The notes under the pieces were generated by a model. That model worked only from the letters and a program-made list of their open reading frames with translations, was not told the DNA's origin and made no database searches. A stretch of DNA of 60,719 nt from a virus. Shown one piece after another: positions 3,565 through 60,719 of the stretch. The stretch's first letter is position 1, and every line of letters begins with the position of its first letter. The DNA lies in IMG/VR virus record IMGVR_UViG_3300025949_000002, positions 1 through 60,719 of that record; one strand, written 5' to 3'. Made by a program: the position numbers and the translations under genes.

Positions 3565-4271
3565 GACGACCTCGGCTCCTAGACCTTTTTTGCCGCGCTG
3601 CGGGGGCAGGGATGGGCTATTACCGCGCAGGCTTTGACGTGACAGGCATCGACATAGAGGCGCAGCCTAATCATCCTGGAGTGGGTTTGTACGGCATGGA
3701 GGGGATGCAGTTTATCCAGGCAGACGCGCTGGAGTATCTGCGGGAGTGCGGACAGTGCTTTGATGCTATCCATGCCTCCCCGCCATGTCAGGGGTTTACA
3801 CAGGTGGCGGCGTTGGGTAAAGCCCGCAACGGTTCCTATCGAGAGCATCAGAACCTGATAGATCCTGTTCGGGAACTGCTTATCAAAATCGGGAAGCCCT
3901 ACATAATCGAGAACGTTCCGGGCGCACCGCTTCACAATCCCGCGATGCTTTGCGGTTCGATGTTTCCCGCGCTGCGCGTCTACCGCCACCGGCTATTTGA
4001 GACGAACTGGAACCTGGTCGCGCCGCCCCATGTTCCCCACCGGGACAAGACGCCTTCTGCGGGAAATGGTGTTTCGCCGAAGGGATATATCAGTGTTTGC
4101 GGTACTGGAGGTGTGCGTGGAATGGTCGAACCGGACATAACCCGATATTGGCAGATGGCAATGGGTATTGACTGGATGGGCAGGGATGACCTCGCGCAAG
4201 CGATCCCGCCCGCATACACTGAACTGATCGGAAAACAACTGATTGCGCTTCTGGAGGCCCGCACAGCATGA
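3561..4271 (+). CDS. DNA (cytosine-5) methyltransferase, short phage type
   Basis: Transfers methyl from S-adenosylmethionine to cytosine C5 in DNA. Motif I (LLDLFCRAAGAGMGYYRAGF) binds SAM, motif IV has the catalytic cysteine (ASPPCQGF, about residues 72-79), motif VI is ENVPGA (about 117), and the last motifs (IPPAYTELIGKQL) close the fold. At 236 residues it is shorter than typical 330-residue Dcm enzymes, so its target-recognition region is compact. A related enzyme is encoded at 59445-60089. Likely protects phage DNA from host restriction; sequence specificity unknown. Confidence 0.9.
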   Translation: MRRPRLLDLFCRAAGAGMGYYRAGFDVTGIDIEAQPNHPGVGLYGMEGMQFIQADALEYLRECGQCFDAIHASPPCQGFTQVAALGKARNGSYREHQNLIDPVRELLIKIGKPYIIENVPGAPLHNPAMLCGSMFPALRVYRHRLFETNWNLVAPPHVPHRDKTPSAGNGVSPKGYISVCGTGGVRGMVEPDITRYWQMAMGIDWMGRDDLAQAIPPAYTELIGKQLIALLEARTA

Positions 4272-41930: not shown

Positions 41931-43391
41931 ATGCTCACGCACCTCGACAACTTGGGGCCGGTCAATCTGGCCGATCCGGTTCACCGGCAACATCCCCTGA
42001 ACCGGAACCGCTCCGCGTGGTGGCTGACTCTCCCACAACTTGCGGGAGGGGTCAAGTTTTACGACCTCATGGGTCTGAACCACGGGGCCTTAACCTCCAT
42101 GACAAGCGGCGCGACTGCCGGATGGAGGAGCACGACCCGTCCTGGCGGGTACGGGGCGCTGCTGTTTGATAGCATCGTCAGTTCGTCGGTCAACATGACT
42201 CCTTCGCCGTCGCTGTCCCCCACGGTGGCGATGTCGGTGTCGTTGTGGGTGAACCTGACGGCGGCGATTGGCAGCGGCTATACCCTGGTGGCGCATGATG
42301 ATGGGACAAACCGCTCCTTCGCCCTCCGCGCTACCGCGACAGGATTTCGCTTCTTCGTCGGCGCAGGTTCCGGTTCACTTTTCTCAACCACCGTCCCCAC
42401 GGTAGGGCAGTGGTATCACGTCGCGGCGACCTACGACGGGGCCGCCACCCGGATATATGTCAACGGCCAGATGGAGAATACGGCCTCGACCTCCGTGGCA
42501 ATCCCGACCGGCGCGGCCATATTCTCCATCGGGATTTCACAGGCATCGTCGTTTTTCCTGCCCCTCACGGGATACGCAGACGACGTGGGGTTCTGGACCC
42601 ACGCTATATCCACGCGGGAGGTGTGGGAACTCTACAACCTCTCCAGGACAGGCTACCCCGGCCTGCTGAACCGATGGCCGTCCCGGATGGTAGATGGCGC
42701 GTCCGGTGGTGGGACCGTCAGTGGAGCGGCGGCACTGGTAGGAGCCGGGTTGTTGAGCGCGTCCGGAACAGCCGTCGTCCTGGGGACCGGGCAGATCGTT
42801 GGGGTCGGAAGCCTCGACGCCGCCGCGACCGCAATCCTGAGCGGTACGGCTGCGGTCGTCGGGGTGGGGAGCCTCGGGGCATCTGGTGTTCCGATCGTGA
42901 GCGGTGCCGCGGCGCTGAATGGCGTCGGGTTGCTGTCCGGCTTGGGAACGCCGGTCGTAAACGGCGCGGCAAACCTGACCGGCATCGCGATCCTGACCCC
43001 CGCGGGGTTGGTGATTTCGCAGGCCACGGCAAACCTCCTGGGCGTGGCGTCGCTCAATGCATCGGCGTTTACGATCGTTCCCGCTCAGGGCGCAATGGTT
43101 GCAGTCGGCGTCCTGCTCCCCAATGGGACAGTGCAGGTCGTGGGGCAGGCGGCGGTCAGTGGTGTGGCGGCGTTGGGCGCGGCGGGCACGACAGTGGTTC
43201 TGGGGCAGGCGGGTCTGTCGGGCGTGGGTATCCTGGCGGCGCAGCCCGGTGCAGCGACGATCGCCGGTACTGCAACGCTCATCGGGGTCTCCCTCCTCGG
43301 CGCGCGCGGGCCGAGGCTCCCCATCATAGTCATCGGGGCGACGACCAGCGGTGACGAGTTGATAACGATCGGCCCAGGGGGGACGGCCTGA
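41931..43391 (+). CDS. LamG-domain protein with 20-22-residue repeats
   Basis: 486 residues. About 1-250 is a LamG/concanavalin-type jelly roll (MSVSLWVNLTAAIGSGYTLV; GQWYHVAATYDGAATRIYVN; GYADDVGFWTHAIS). About 262-465 has some ten imperfect repeats of the form GxAxLxGVGxLxAxGTxVV, likely a solenoid or stalk. N-terminus MLTHLDNLGPVNL matches the next gene. Probable glycan-binding virion decoration. Confidence 0.75.
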   Translation: MLTHLDNLGPVNLADPVHRQHPLNRNRSAWWLTLPQLAGGVKFYDLMGLNHGALTSMTSGATAGWRSTTRPGGYGALLFDSIVSSSVNMTPSPSLSPTVAMSVSLWVNLTAAIGSGYTLVAHDDGTNRSFALRATATGFRFFVGAGSGSLFSTTVPTVGQWYHVAATYDGAATRIYVNGQMENTASTSVAIPTGAAIFSIGISQASSFFLPLTGYADDVGFWTHAISTREVWELYNLSRTGYPGLLNRWPSRMVDGASGGGTVSGAAALVGAGLLSASGTAVVLGTGQIVGVGSLDAAATAILSGTAAVVGVGSLGASGVPIVSGAAALNGVGLLSGLGTPVVNGAANLTGIAILTPAGLVISQATANLLGVASLNASAFTIVPAQGAMVAVGVLLPNGTVQVVGQAAVSGVAALGAAGTTVVLGQAGLSGVGILAAQPGAATIAGTATLIGVSLLGARGPRLPIIVIGATTSGDELITIGPGGTA

Positions 43392-44311
43392 TGCTGACGC
43401 ATATCGATAATATATCCCCCGTCTACCTCCCCGACCCGGTCAACCGTCAGCATCCGCTGAATCAGGGTCGGATCGGGTGGTGGCTTGCCCTGCCGGAGAT
43501 TTCGGGCGGGCGGTTCTGGTATGACCTCATGGGGTTAAGCCACGGCGCGGTCGTGCAAGGGGCCAGCGGCGCGGGGTTCGGGTGGAAGCCTACGGCGCGT
43601 CCCGGTGGCTATGGAGACATTCGGTTCGATGGCGCGGGAGGTTCGATTGACTGCGGGGCGTCGGATCGGTTCAACTTCACGAGCCAGAACTTCTCACTGT
43701 CGTTTTGGCTTCTGGCGGAAACCCTGACAAACCAGCCGGTGGTCATCAACCGCGGGACGTTCCTCGTAGACGGTTGGTACATCTTCATCAACTCGTCAGG
43801 CCAGATCGAACTCCAGCTAGAGTCCTCTGGGGCGGACCATCATGCTATCAGCAACAATACCGTGGTCGCTGGTTCGTACGATCATTTTACGATCGTCAGG
43901 GCATCGACCACCGCGGTCAAGATTTACAAAAACGGGGTGTCGGTATTTGTCCTGGGGAATGTTAGCGACTGCGCGAACTCCACCGCGCCCCTGGTGTTCG
44001 GTCGCTACATCACCGGTTCGGCCAACAACCTGAGGGGTCGGATGGACGACATTTCGATATGGGGACGCGCGCTTTCCGCTACGGAGGCGATGGAACTCTA
44101 CAACCTGTCCCGCCGGGGCTATCCGGGCGTCCTCAACCGATGGCAGCAGCGGACCGTTGCTGATCCACTGGCTACCGTAGTTCCCGGCGCGGCATTCCTG
44201 CCGGGGACTTCCCTTTTGGCAATCCGTCGTTCGTCCCTTCCCCTCATCTACGTCACGTCCTCCGCCGACTCGGGGGACGATGGATTGAGTATTTCCAGCG
44301 TGGTCGCGTAA
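43391..44311 (+). CDS. LamG-domain protein, tandem paralogue
   Basis: 306 residues; start overlaps the previous stop by one base. Its first 55 residues align closely with the preceding protein (MLTHIDNISPVYLPDPVNRQ, WYDLMGLSHGA), followed by the same LamG fold (FSLSFWLLAETL; GRMDDISIWGRALSATEAM) and the shared ending ELYNLSRRGYPGVLNRW, but without the repeat stalk. Two jelly-roll variants in tandem suggest dual receptor or surface binding. Confidence 0.75.
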   Translation: MLTHIDNISPVYLPDPVNRQHPLNQGRIGWWLALPEISGGRFWYDLMGLSHGAVVQGASGAGFGWKPTARPGGYGDIRFDGAGGSIDCGASDRFNFTSQNFSLSFWLLAETLTNQPVVINRGTFLVDGWYIFINSSGQIELQLESSGADHHAISNNTVVAGSYDHFTIVRASTTAVKIYKNGVSVFVLGNVSDCANSTAPLVFGRYITGSANNLRGRMDDISIWGRALSATEAMELYNLSRRGYPGVLNRWQQRTVADPLATVVPGAAFLPGTSLLAIRRSSLPLIYVTSSADSGDDGLSISSVVA

Positions 44312-45226: not shown

Positions 45227-45259
45227 GGAATGGGCAGGTTTGGGAGGGAGGGTAACGCG

Positions 45260-45499
45260 ATGCCGGTTTGTTGCTGTGCGAATCCTGCGTGTCGGATTTA
45301 TGGGTGCGCGATAGCGAAACGAGAGATGGGATACCACTATCCGCCCGGACCTGCGGTGGCGAATCCGGGATTGCCTGCGATGCCACCAATCCCGACGGGC
45401 TGGCGTTGCCCTTCCTGCGGGGCGTGTCACAGCCCTCTGGTGATGACCTGCCCCTGCTCCATGCAGGCGCGGTCGGCGGTGAGTTGTGCGGGCGATTAG
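45260..45499 (+). CDS. Cys-rich zinc ribbon protein
   Basis: 79 residues starting MPVCCCANPACRIYGC; a second cluster is CPSCGACHSPLVMTCPC. At least eight cysteines could hold two zinc ions. ATG 45260 is chosen because upstream in-frame codons cross the palindromes. Unknown role; similar metal-binding tails are widespread in this phage. Confidence 0.55.
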   Translation: MPVCCCANPACRIYGCAIAKREMGYHYPPGPAVANPGLPAMPPIPTGWRCPSCGACHSPLVMTCPCSMQARSAVSCAGD

Positions 45500-45555: not shown

Positions 45556-45684
45556 TGTAGCGTTCCAGTGGTGGAGAGGGTGCGTCAACACCCGCCCCCA
45601 CCGTAGCAACCTGCTACAACAGGCTACCGAGGAGTAGAGTACCACGGTGGTGCTCCGTTTGTCTTCCCGGTAGAAGGAGGTGTT

Positions 45685-46095
45685 GTGAATTTCATACAGA
45701 GACTGTTTAGTACCTCACAGTTCATGCCGCGGAGGTTTTGCGGCAACTGGACTCCGGCATTGCTTGCGTTGCATCAATTTTCTGACCTCATTATCTGCGT
45801 CAGTTACATGATTATCCCGTTTCTGCTCTGGAGACTATACGCTCTATGGAAACAGCAACGTCTCGATACCTGCTGCGCGGGTCGGTATATCCCGCTCCTG
45901 TGTGGGCAAACGGCGGCCTTCATCTTCTGTTGCGGCATCACGCATCTGCATCAGGTGGTGGTGTTCTACTACCCGTTCTATCGATGGATAGGGGTCTGGA
46001 GCGCCCTAACGGCCTTAATCTCGGCCTCGGTGGTCGCGTCCCTGTCGATGGTTATGGGTCTCTGTATACGGCCTGCTGTGCCGCCTGGAAGCTAG
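45685..46095 (+). CDS. Stand-alone ethylene-receptor-like transmembrane domain
   Basis: 136 residues, GTG start with AAGGAGGTG just upstream. Three membrane helices (about 33-55, 69-96, 100-127). It follows the N-terminal ethylene/copper-binding domain of ETR1 and of bacterial sensor kinases: W-P-LL-LH then D34, Y41, I44, P45 with the exact ETR1 spacing (D25, Y32, I35, P36), and FIFCCGITH giving I80, C83, H87 for I62, C65, H69. No kinase follows. First gene before coiled-coil membrane proteins and the endolysin region, so a holin-like, sensing or host-interfering role is possible; ligand binding is unproven. Confidence 0.8.
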   Translation: MNFIQRLFSTSQFMPRRFCGNWTPALLALHQFSDLIICVSYMIIPFLLWRLYALWKQQRLDTCCAGRYIPLLCGQTAAFIFCCGITHLHQVVVFYYPFYRWIGVWSALTALISASVVASLSMVMGLCIRPAVPPGS

Positions 46096-46106: not shown

Positions 46107-46787
46107 ATGAATACGACGCTCTGGGGGGCCGTGATTGCGGGTGCGTTTGTGGTATTCGGCGGGATCGTGACGGGCATCTTCTCCTTTATGGTAGGGAGGC
46201 GCACTGCGGCGGCGGCGGAACTGAACTCCAAAAAGGTTTCCGATACCACGATGGCCGTGACGATCATGGACGACCGCAAAGACATCACCCACACGTTTCA
46301 AACCCAACTCAATGCCGCGACAGAGAAGCTGGATTCGTTTCGGTCAGAACTGGACAAGGTGCGGGATCTGGTTCTGGACTACAAGGAGAAGTTGGGCCTC
46401 GCCAATGTGGAGATAAAGGATCTCCGCGCCTTGACGGAGCGGCAGGAGCGGCAGATACTACAACTCCAGGACTCCGAGCGGGCGCGGAAGCAGGAGTACG
46501 AGGTCATGATCTCCCGCCTGCAAGACGAGAACAAGGATCAGAAGGACGCCATGCAGGTACTGCGGACGGAGAACATCACCCTCCGGGGAGAGGTCGATAC
46601 GTTGCGGCAGCAGGTGCAGGGCAACTCCCGCGACATCCACGATATAGGGGCGATCGAGGTCAAGGCCGCGGCGGGCAAGGGTCTACCAGATGTCTCGACT
46701 TCCCTCCAAGGTATCTCACAGGAGCGGAGGGGCGCGGACGCGTTCTCAACACTCCACCAAAGCGCGGAACCGGAAGGTGAGAAGTAG
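46107..46787 (+). CDS. Membrane-anchored long coiled-coil protein
   Basis: 226 residues from ATG 46107. N-terminal membrane helix (LWGAVIAGAFVVFGGIVTGI) followed by about 130 residues of coiled coil (ERQERQILQLQDSERARKQE; LRTENITLRGEVDTLRQQVQ). The layout resembles a spanin or membrane-organising factor, but no lipobox or spanin partner is clear. Between the ethylene-like domain gene and another coiled-coil membrane gene, it may belong to the lysis cassette. Confidence 0.5.
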   Translation: MNTTLWGAVIAGAFVVFGGIVTGIFSFMVGRRTAAAAELNSKKVSDTTMAVTIMDDRKDITHTFQTQLNAATEKLDSFRSELDKVRDLVLDYKEKLGLANVEIKDLRALTERQERQILQLQDSERARKQEYEVMISRLQDENKDQKDAMQVLRTENITLRGEVDTLRQQVQGNSRDIHDIGAIEVKAAAGKGLPDVSTSLQGISQERRGADAFSTLHQSAEPEGEK

Positions 46788-46796
46788 CGGAACGCC

Positions 46797-47249
46797 ATGC
46801 CAGACGAAGCGCCGGAACACACCGCGGGCTGGACCCTCCAGACCCAACACATCTATACCCATCGGGTCATTGCGGACCTGGAGAAGCGGGTGGGGATCAG
46901 CATCGAATGCGTGGAGTCTCGGTTTGAGCAGCGGGTCGAAGACCTCAAGGTCCTGCACGCGGCCCAACTGAGCGCCGCCAACAAGGCCCTCGAAGCCGCC
47001 CGGCTGTCCAGCGATAAAGCGATCGACAAATCTGCGGTGGATATTGAGCGATGGCGGGAGGCGATGAACGACCGGGAGAAGAACTTCGCCACCAAATCGG
47101 ACGTGGAGGCGGTGGAGAAGCAGCTCTATGCGCTGTCCTCCCGGATGGACAAAACGGAGGGCAAGGGGTTGGGGGCCACGGGCCTGCTGAGTATCGCGGT
47201 CAGTGTGGCGGCGGTCCTGGGGGCGTTGATCGCGATATTTCGGAAATAG
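46797..47249 (+). CDS. Coiled-coil protein with C-terminal membrane helix
   Basis: 150 residues. Coiled coil (IDKSAVDIERWREAMNDREK; VEAVEKQLYALSSRMDKTEG) and a C-terminal hydrophobic helix (GLLSIAVSVAAVLGALIAIF) ending in RK. Tail-anchored proteins of this form next to endolysins are often called holin or holin-associated (XhlA-like). Reasonable but not certain. Confidence 0.55.
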   Translation: MPDEAPEHTAGWTLQTQHIYTHRVIADLEKRVGISIECVESRFEQRVEDLKVLHAAQLSAANKALEAARLSSDKAIDKSAVDIERWREAMNDREKNFATKSDVEAVEKQLYALSSRMDKTEGKGLGATGLLSIAVSVAAVLGALIAIFRK

Positions 47250-48836: not shown

Positions 48837-49202
48837 ATGAGCAGCAGCAACAGCAACTCTACCTCCACCTACCCTTCCCAGACCACCCACGCGGACAGGG
48901 TGGCGGGATGGATCGCTATCGGTCTATTTGTGGCCCTGATTGTGTCGATGTGCCTCTCCGGTTTCCTGTCCGGCGTGGATGCCGTAACGCGCTCCCAGAT
49001 CGTCGGGATCGGCCAGACCTGCGCCGGGGCACTCGCGGCCACACTGACTCTCCGCCGCTCCGCTCCGACACCCGATAGTTCGCAACAGGTCACGATCCCC
49101 GGCAGTGCGGACGGCAGTACCGCAGGGGTTACGCTCACGACCACTACGGGGACGGTTCAGCCTCCCGCTCCCCCTCCTGCGGGCGATCCGGGGGCAGGGT
49201 AG
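48837..49202 (+). CDS. Holin candidate
   Basis: 121 residues. Ser/Asn/Thr-rich N-terminus, a strong membrane helix at about 22-47 (AGWIAIGLFVALIVSMCLSG), a second weaker one at about 55-75 (IVGIGQTCAGALAATLTL) and a Pro/Thr tail. Size, helix count and place one gene block before the endolysin fit a class II holin. Not provable by sequence. Confidence 0.5.
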   Translation: MSSSNSNSTSTYPSQTTHADRVAGWIAIGLFVALIVSMCLSGFLSGVDAVTRSQIVGIGQTCAGALAATLTLRRSAPTPDSSQQVTIPGSADGSTAGVTLTTTTGTVQPPAPPPAGDPGAG

Positions 49203-49825: not shown

Positions 49826-50359
49826 ATGCCTAACCTCGACTACATCTGGAAACCTGCCGTTGCCGGGGCGTTTACACCAGGTCGCTCCGGCCACTCCATA
49901 AAATCTATAATCCTGCACTCCTCCTGCGGGAGGAAAGCGGGTGACATCCTGACGCTGACCGGGCACGACCACACGCACCTCGTGTCCTCCCACTGGTACG
50001 TGGACAGGCCGGATGCAGACGGTAAAGTGGCGATCTACCACTTCGTCCAGAACAGCGACACTGCATACCATGCGGGCGTCGTCTGCGATCAGAAGTACTC
50101 CAACTCCAGCAGTATCGGAATCGAGCAGGGTCACATGGACGGTCAGGAGGATTGGCCCGACCCGCAGGTCCAAGCCACGGCCCGCCTCTGCGTCGCTCTG
50201 CTCCAACGCTACCCCGGACTGGAGATCGCGCACCACTCTGCCGTCGCGTGCCCCCCTGGGAGGAAGACCGATCCCGTCAACTTCCCCTCGGAGGTGTTCT
50301 GGGCGGAGTACCGGCGGGCCGAGGGGCAGCAATGGACGTTTAACGCGGTGGAGGAGTAG
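49826..50359 (+). CDS. Endolysin, N-acetylmuramoyl-L-alanine amidase
   Basis: 177 residues; AGGAG eight bases before the ATG. Amidase_2 (T7 lysozyme/PGRP) fold with zinc ligands and site residues in SIILHSSCG (His31), SSHWYVDRP, HFVQNSDTAYHAG, SSSIGIEQGHMDG and AHHSAVACPPGRKTDP. Cleaves the amide between muramic acid and peptide to lyse the cell. No signal peptide, so it needs a holin. It is an isolated rightward gene within leftward ones, overlapping the leftward 50340 gene by 20 bases. Confidence 0.9.
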   Translation: MPNLDYIWKPAVAGAFTPGRSGHSIKSIILHSSCGRKAGDILTLTGHDHTHLVSSHWYVDRPDADGKVAIYHFVQNSDTAYHAGVVCDQKYSNSSSIGIEQGHMDGQEDWPDPQVQATARLCVALLQRYPGLEIAHHSAVACPPGRKTDPVNFPSEVFWAEYRRAEGQQWTFNAVEE

Positions 50360-59444: not shown

Positions 59445-60089
59445 CTATAAATGCAGTAACAGTTGACGCCCCAAGAACTCCGTATAGGCAGGAGGAATCG
59501 CCTGTGTCAATTCCTCCTTTGTCATCCAGTCGATGCCCATTGCGGACGCCCAGGCGGCTTTCCTGCGGTGATCCGGCGGAACGAGGCCCGTGGAGTTATC
59601 GCCATGCCCGGAGGGGGTACAGTAGCCGTCTTTTCCGATGCGCTTCCCCTTGTGGGAATGGTGGGGAGGCTGCATCAGAAATACGTTGCTTTCAAACAAC
59701 CGATGCCGGAATACCTTTAGACCGAACATAAGCCCGCATAGCGTCACGGTATCGACCAGCGGAGCACCTATCACATTCTCCATAATCCACGGTTTACCCG
59801 ACGATACCAGCAGTTCCCGCGTCGGCTCAATCAAGTCCGGGTATTCGTTCTCGGCATGGATTGAATGAGTACAACTGAATTCCTGACAGGGAGGGGAGGC
59901 GTGGATGGCATCAAAACACCGTCCGCATTCTGCCAGATACTCTAGCGCGTCTGCCTGAACGAAGCGGAAAGGATAGTTTCTCTGTGGCTTTTTGTCCACC
60001 CCTACCACGTCAAAACCTGCCCGGTGATAGCCCATGCCCGCACCGCCAGCACAGCAAAACAAGTCAAGCAGAATTGGTTTTCGTGACAA
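59445..60089 (-). CDS. DNA (cytosine-5) methyltransferase, second copy
   Basis: 214 residues from TTG with GGAGG six bases upstream. Motif I LLDLFCCAGGAGMGYHRAGF, motif IV ASPPCQEF with the catalytic Cys, motif VI ENVIGA, and the end IPPAYTEFLGRQL. It resembles the 3561 enzyme over its whole length but differs in the central target region and lacks its NHPGVGLYG insertion, so the two may methylate different sites. First gene of an operator-covered leftward operon. Confidence 0.9.
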   Translation of the reverse strand: MSRKPILLDLFCCAGGAGMGYHRAGFDVVGVDKKPQRNYPFRFVQADALEYLAECGRCFDAIHASPPCQEFSCTHSIHAENEYPDLIEPTRELLVSSGKPWIMENVIGAPLVDTVTLCGLMFGLKVFRHRLFESNVFLMQPPHHSHKGKRIGKDGYCTPSGHGDNSTGLVPPDHRRKAAWASAMGIDWMTKEELTQAIPPAYTEFLGRQLLLHL

Positions 60090-60592: not shown

Positions 60593-60719
60593 AGACAGTG
60601 ACTAATTCCCCTCCTGTCGCTGTCCTGCATACATCTGTACCGGCACACACCGTAGCAGATCTGTCCCAAACTGACGCTTTACAAATCCTGCCTTACTGAA
60701 AGCAAGCTTAGTCACAGAC
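60593..60719. repeat. Right copy of 127-bp direct terminal repeat
   Basis: Identical to bases 1-127; see that entry. Joining the two copies gives a continuous circular map without interrupting any gene. Confidence 0.95.

Follow-up and report, generated by a model that had tools for sequence, protein, structure and literature searches.

A stand-alone ethylene-binding domain protein in the lysis region of a tailed phage

Ethylene receptors serve in signalling in plants and in some bacteria. Here we describe an ethylene-binding domain (EBD) that a tailed phage encodes as a gene of its own in its lysis region. The protein is homologous to the EBDs of these receptors, is predicted to adopt their three-helix fold and retains the metal ligands. 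Lone EBDs of this kind occur in further phages, with a recurrent type of neighbouring protein, and a split arrangement is found in bacteria as well. While the EBD is a familiar domain, we found no description of it as a lone gene in the lysis regions of phages. Our literature search retrieved no paper on EBDs in phages; most subscription papers lay outside its scope, and prior notice is possible.

The window, by which we mean the whole stretch of DNA analysed, is the 60,719-nt record IMGVR_UViG_3300025949_000002, which derives from a tailed phage. An exact direct terminal repeat of 127 nt (positions 1-127 and 60593-60719) fits a complete phage genome that was assembled as a circle. The record carries terminase-like, portal-like and HK97-type (major capsid-like) structural genes as well as an amidase endolysin, which together with the terminal repeat rule out a non-phage origin.

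The ethylene-binding domain gene and its product

The gene and the codons discussed below are the following.

45675 to 45680, + strand: ribosome-binding site AGGAGG, 4 nt ahead of the GTG start (read from the sequence)
45685 to 46095, + strand: stand-alone EBD protein, 136 aa, three membrane helices (PF25487, alignment, AlphaFold)
45739 to 45741, + strand: codon of Cys19, at the position of the Cys in the bacterial PHGxC motif; invariant in every EBD compared (alignments)
45784 to 45786, + strand: codon of Asp34, equivalent to ETR1 Asp25, a copper-site residue (alignment; role from PMC12643061)
45931 to 45945, + strand: codons of Cys83-Gly-Ile-Thr-His87, equivalent to ETR1 Cys65 to His69, the Cu(I) ligands (alignments)

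A Pfam search with the 136-residue open reading frame returned one family only, ETR1_N (PF25487), over residues 26-124 (E=6.1e-16; 58.9 bits against a curated cut-off of 27). Could the frame nevertheless be spurious? An equally long stop-free run has a chance of about 4% per frame and is unremarkable on length alone. We regard the frame as real because of its homology, and the ETR1_N match (E=6e-16) rules out a chance open reading frame. No kinase or cyclase domain was detected in this frame or in the next genes, so the EBD is not fused to an output. The G+C content of the gene is 0.538, compared with 0.59-0.66 in its neighbours, which is consistent with later acquisition. A role as a defence gene was also considered and rejected, the EBD being without a PADLOC match.

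The window protein was aligned with nine plasmid-borne bacterial EBDs. One of these, L007, belongs to a 529-codon open reading frame of Azospirillum brasilense Sp7 and is most likely AzoEtr1. The EBD of AzoEtr1, a 525-aa protein of the same A. brasilense strain, binds ethylene (PMC11819568). The alignment contains fifteen invariant columns, among them D34, Y41, I44, P45, I80, C83 and H87 in addition to C19, W22 and others. All seven ethylene-binding residues of ETR1 (D25, Y32, I35, P36, I62, C65 and H69) are present in the window protein. These seven were reportedly identified by Wang et al. in 2006 as needed for ethylene binding by ETR1. Support for I35, P36, I62, C65, H69 and Asp25 comes from PMC6586836 and PMC12643061: Cys65 and His69 are the Cu(I) ligands of ETR1 (PMC6586836, PMC12643061), and Asp25 has a role in its copper site (PMC12643061).

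With the EBDs of ETR1, AzoEtr1 and SynEtr1 the window protein shares the three-helix fold, the seven residues, the N-terminal Cys and a conserved Ser in helix 3. Unlike these receptors it lacks GAF, PAS, kinase and receiver domains, ends about 10 residues past helix 3 and is encoded in a phage lysis region. Its loop between helices 1 and 2 is longer, by about nine residues relative to the bacterial EBDs, and the position of ETR1 Lys91 is taken by Ser106 in the alignment. Lys91 is frequent in cellular EBDs, is neither strict nor defining, and lies outside the seven binding residues.

AlphaFold, supplied with a 66-row alignment, predicts helices at residues 24-57, 69-93 and 99-127 (pLDDT 92, pTM 0.77); without the alignment the model was poor (pLDDT 56) and was set aside. 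Foldseek found no solved structure resembling the window EBD, and no solved EBD emerged for comparison. The best viral model in that search, A0A8E4UZR7 (289 aa, E=0.008, probability 1.00), has the length of gp065 of the cultured phage Molly (see below); this identity rests on length only and the accession is unconfirmed. The phage EBDs, with 118-136 aa, represent a minimal natural form for structural work on a domain without a relative in a fold search of the PDB.

A preliminary description of this DNA had proposed a phage-encoded, stand-alone ethylene-binding-like membrane domain, a proposal borne out by Pfam, the alignments, the AlphaFold model and the gene context. It had read the seven motif residues and their spacing within each motif correctly, and the gene does stand at the head of a membrane/lysis block, followed by the genes at 46107, 46797 and 48837 and the amidase gene at 49826. 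The description would have been refuted by a structure prediction lacking the three-helix fold; AlphaFold predicts three helices, a result that does not cover the geometry of the metal site.

Ethylene-binding domains in other phages and in bacteria

Is this phage alone in carrying an isolated EBD? Used as a single query, the window protein retrieved no close relative from IMG/VR or from bacterial genomes, and tblastn against cultured phages gave no match with it or with the EBDs of loci L236, L018, L228 and L023. The EBD of L231, a fuller copy of L212, in contrast led by tblastn to the Maribacter phages Molly and Colly. In IMG/VR, a scan guided by a profile yielded 12 EBD loci, to which a second scan added two. 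We also scanned IMG/VR DNA with the pattern PHGxC-x14-D-x6-Y-x2-IP only, which makes no mention of Cys83 or His87; it returned ten contigs, every one of them with an EBD. In total, 16 stand-alone EBDs are found in phage or phage-like records, from IMG/VR, one cultured phage and the window itself (window, Molly, L016, L018, L020, L021, L022, L023, L024, L126, L211, L212, L214, L216, L217 and L218). In the IMG/VR loci, stand-alone denotes roughly 115-220 aa. The phage context is clear in twelve of the 16, moderate in L016 and L023, and weaker in L021, which adjoins replication genes, and in L022, where the phage signal is sparse; both of the latter were retained. Left outside the count were L019, with bacterial-looking neighbours, L017 and L128/L229, in which the EBD is fused to longer proteins, and L213/L232, where a frameshifted EBD lies beside GGDEF/EAL-like pieces. 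All 19 members of one of our EBD alignments (A5) match ETR1_N at E<=0.001.

Complete EBD kinases were also observed on viral contigs. L013 (9998-11437), and likewise L014 and L015, are contigs of 49-61 kb with a complete EBD-PAS-HisKA-HATPase kinase among phage-like genes. L251 (924-2395) and L250, which are 245 kb and 80 kb long, encode EBD-HisKA-HATPase kinases of the same PRRxCGxW subtype as the window, each with an adjacent response regulator. One review raises the possibility that histidine kinase genes are exchanged by giant DNA viruses of algae (PMC7700396).

Among cultured phages, Molly_1 encodes the EBD in gp065 (YP_010357114.1), a protein of 289 aa annotated as hypothetical and without a kinase. 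The gene overlaps by 4 nt with gp064, which encodes a membrane helix followed by a coiled coil, and ends 3 nt ahead of the endolysin gene gp066. Molly gp065 thus resembles the window protein in lacking a kinase and in adjoining both a helix plus coiled-coil protein and an endolysin, here in a cultured tailed phage. It differs by an identity of only 23%, by Asn in place of Asp25, by Ser in place of Pro36, and by about 160 additional C-terminal residues. The paper describing Molly gives an amidase as the sole lysis gene, and unnamed membrane-helix proteins lie nearby (PMC8776804). Since a cultured lytic phage carries an EBD, the question of its function is open to bench work now.

The other phage EBDs are only 22-38% identical to the window protein. 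In 13 stand-alone phage proteins, the sole invariant columns are Cys19, Tyr41, Phe79, Cys83, Gly84, His87 and Ser113. This count is biased because part of the set was found with a pattern requiring FIxxCGx(T/G)H; among eight proteins free of that bias (window, Molly, L211, L212, L214, L216, L217 and L218), Cys83 and His87 are kept in all eight. Other positions are less constrained: Asp25 is kept in nine of the 13 and replaced by Asn or Gly in four, Pro36 is kept in ten, and Lys or Arg occupies the Lys91 position in 5/13 phage EBDs versus 47/50 cellular ones. Our reading of these alignments is that copper binding is under selection, with a relaxation of the coupling typical of kinase-linked receptors. 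As Lys91 is mostly lost and Asp25 is lost in four of 13, ethylene sensing of the ETR1 type may not be intact.

Where did the phage genes come from? In a tree of 79 EBDs (130 columns), with many unresolved forks and some long branches, the window falls inside a clade of 29 (support 100/99), otherwise composed of cellular kinases of the 'PRxxCGxW' type and one phage-borne fused kinase. The rows nearest the window are a bacterium and Abditibacterium. Other phage EBDs are placed elsewhere in the tree, which requires a minimum of six label changes, and the AU test speaks against uniting all of them in one clade (p=0.038). With moderate confidence, the tree suggests that phages captured EBDs several separate times.

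In cells the EBD is generally part of a larger protein. All 64 cellular loci inspected from our genome scan, selected for similarity to the window, have the EBD within a longer open reading frame. In drawn samples, EBDs occur in 20 of 289 Alphaproteobacteria and 18 of 297 Bacteroidota; those of Bacteroidota all lie in frames of at least 390 aa, whereas four intact EBDs of Alphaproteobacteria lie in frames of fewer than 200 aa. In three alphaproteobacterial loci, L247 (6693-9156), L248 (6891-9028) and L249 (7332-9175), a histidine kinase gene lies directly behind the short EBD gene on that strand, with a gap of at most 38 nt or an overlap; the kinase has its own membrane helix and, in L249, a CHASE3 domain. 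The neighbour of the short EBD in the fourth locus, L246, is a kinase fragment, perhaps from a broken gene. Like the window, the split pairs have the EBD in its own gene of 135-140 aa ahead of a membrane-helix protein. The difference lies in that neighbour, which is a histidine kinase in the pairs and a helix plus coiled coil without an enzyme domain in the phage. These pairs show EBDs as subunits of their own next to a partner in the membrane, a phage-like layout plus an enzyme.

These comparisons qualify several statements of the preliminary description. Its view that the domain is joined to output domains in cells is right and at the same time incomplete, as some bacteria encode the EBD separately with the kinase gene next to it. 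It had suggested a search for the same gene in related phages: homologues occur in many other phages, so the gene is not unique to this one, but none was found in 40 records, often fragmentary, that share a related terminase. Loss of the Cys/His/Asp set from phage homologues would have counted against it; Cys and His are kept in every stand-alone phage EBD found, while Asp is lost in four of 13 and in Molly.

The lysis region and the possible role of the domain

Tail-side genes lie upstream of the EBD gene, and the following genes lie downstream on the same strand.

46107 to 46787, + strand: putative partner of the EBD protein, 226 aa, N-terminal membrane helix then a long coiled coil; open reading frame with weak PHROG matches only, of unknown function
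46797 to 47249, + strand: protein of 150 aa, coiled coil and C-terminal membrane helix; no notable family match
48837 to 49202, + strand: protein of 121 aa, one or two membrane helices; weak PHROG matches only, no Pfam match
49826 to 50359, + strand: endolysin, N-acetylmuramoyl-L-alanine amidase; PF01510 (E=2.8e-18) and PHROG endolysin families

The amidase gene is 3.7 kb downstream of the EBD gene, and the EBD protein meets the holin criterion of a small membrane protein near an endolysin. From its size and place, the 48837 product is inferred to be a candidate separate holin. An Arg-Arg pair after the helix of the 46107 product suggests an N-out/C-in orientation with a cytoplasmic coiled coil.

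Most of the 16 phage EBD genes are likewise placed between tail genes and the endolysin. Pfam confirms a GH108 endolysin in L236, where it overlaps the EBD gene, and in L018, three genes downstream of the EBD, as well as a phage lysozyme upstream of the EBD in L234; matches to NlpC/P60 near the EBD in L023 and to M15 in L024 were both below the cut-off. In 11 of the 16 loci the EBD gene adjoins one for a small protein that has a single membrane helix at one end, the rest being charged and helical (coiled coil). From the density of such genes per locus 1.49 would be expected, and 11 or more were reached in none of 20,000 simulations. The count relies on a crude sequence filter, and the simulation takes account of the density in each locus, not of a preference of such genes for the late module. 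EBD and neighbour genes overlap by a few nucleotides in L016, L228, L231 and Molly. By the positive-inside rule, several neighbour proteins are inferred to be N-out/C-in with a cytoplasmic coiled coil. No homology among the coiled-coil partners could be demonstrated by PHROGs.

What might a lone EBD do at this place? The reading we prefer, tentatively and with slightly less than even confidence, is that the window protein is a lone, copper-holding EBD derived from a bacterial receptor kinase of the PRxxCGxW type, that the neighbouring 46107 product serves as its output, and that the pair tunes late membrane or lysis events. The three EBD helices would lie in the inner membrane of the host, with the N-terminus outside and the C-terminus inside; the protein, most likely dimeric, would hold Cu(I) through Cys83 and His87 together with Asp34. 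It would pack against the membrane helix of its neighbour, with 46107 replacing the fused kinase as output. Binding of a ligand, ethylene or another small pi-ligand, or a change in copper occupancy could then shift the packing of the pair and with it the state of the neighbour's coiled coil, which would act on a late membrane event, most likely the firing time of holin and endolysin. Copper binding by the window protein, its dimerisation, its pairing with 46107, lysis control and the identity of the ligand are all inferences. There are no functional data for such a sensor subunit; coiled-coil helix proteins are frequent among phage late genes, and the end of the late operon also collects accessory genes.

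That lysis can respond to the environment is known from phage T4, where the antiholin RI brings about lysis inhibition (PMC11413866, PMC8385771). The proposed likeness is functional only, a membrane-associated protein that senses a condition and sets the time of lysis. No sequence relation is known, and RI senses superinfection from the periplasm, whereas the window protein is inferred to have an intramembrane Cu(I) site. The lone EBD in a like place of unrelated phages raises the possibility that phages use it in timing the burst of the host. A more far-reaching version, in which unrelated phages repeatedly captured an EBD plus a membrane coiled-coil partner as a gas- or copper-gated lysis switch, we consider possible and on balance doubtful. 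If true, it would be an environmental, ligand-gated lysis switch without a described counterpart. The recurrence, the retention of copper ligands and the repeated neighbour give a concrete, testable case for a metal or gas sensor that puts lysis under environmental control.

The main rival, which we judge unlikely, is that the EBD fold was recruited as a holin or antiholin that makes or regulates the membrane lesion, with copper as a structural element or as the trigger. Class I holins of the lambda S type are likewise small three-helix proteins of the inner membrane encoded near the endolysin, and the size and N-out/C-in layout of the EBD fit that class; in Molly and L236 the EBD gene adjoins the endolysin gene with 3-4 nt spacing or an overlap, and the amidase alone is given as the Molly lysis gene (PMC8776804). 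However, the most conserved residues are those of the Cys/His/Tyr metal site, for which a holin has no need. Neither PHROG nor NCBIfam holin families match the EBD protein, for which Pfam gives ETR1_N alone, and other small helix proteins are present as holin candidates at several loci, among them 48837 here, L024 9756, L234 6844 and L228 10913. The roughly 160 extra soluble residues of the Molly protein do not fit a holin either. Alternatively, a lone sensor subunit could pair with EBD receptor kinases of the host and jam them in a dominant-negative manner, which would change how the host behaves while infected. Receptor EBDs function as dimers (PMC6586836), the nearest relatives of the window protein are bacterial receptor kinases, and the several captures suggested by the tree possibly involved different hosts. 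This proposal seems improbable to us: a late, lysis-side location is poor for a modulator of host signalling, the coupling Lys is among the most variable residues, and with EBDs in only about 6-7% of the sampled Alphaproteobacteria and Bacteroidota most hosts would lack a target.

Strict conservation of Cys, His and Tyr alongside a relaxed Lys91 and a partly relaxed Asp25 would also suit a protein that merely handles copper, scavenging or buffering membrane Cu(I) in late infection or protecting against copper or superinfecting phages without any signalling. We give this little credence, as one atom per monomer makes a poor buffer, no nearby copper gene was recognised and the coiled-coil neighbour is left unexplained. 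Could the gene, finally, be a mere passenger at the end of the late operon, a moron or the relic of a captured kinase without function in the phage cycle? Its low G+C (0.538 against 0.59-0.66), its low codon-usage score and the absence of an EBD from all 40 records with a related terminase would be in keeping with this. An intact open reading frame with a strong ribosome-binding site, metal-site residues that stay fixed in all relatives despite 22-38% identity, and the presence of the gene in the same slot of unrelated phages speak against it, and we hold it to be very improbable.

Other features of the phage genome

Immediately upstream of the EBD gene, at 45256-45499, lies a small Cys-rich frame, CCCANPACRIYGC...CPSCGACH, possibly encoding a zinc-binding protein. 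Further upstream, the genes at 41931-43391 and 43391-44311 encode tandem related tail-side proteins, both beginning MLTH(L/I)DN...QHPLN, with middle parts that appear LamG-like by eye. Two similar genes, putatively for DNA cytosine methyltransferase-like proteins, lie near the two ends of the phage, one on each strand (3612-4271, + strand; 59445-60035, - strand). Boxes resembling TTGACA and TATAAT are present in a 43-nt repeat that occurs three times (1623-1665, 1762-1804 and 2090-2132); the copies surround small HTH-like genes and are perhaps repeated promoter/operators.
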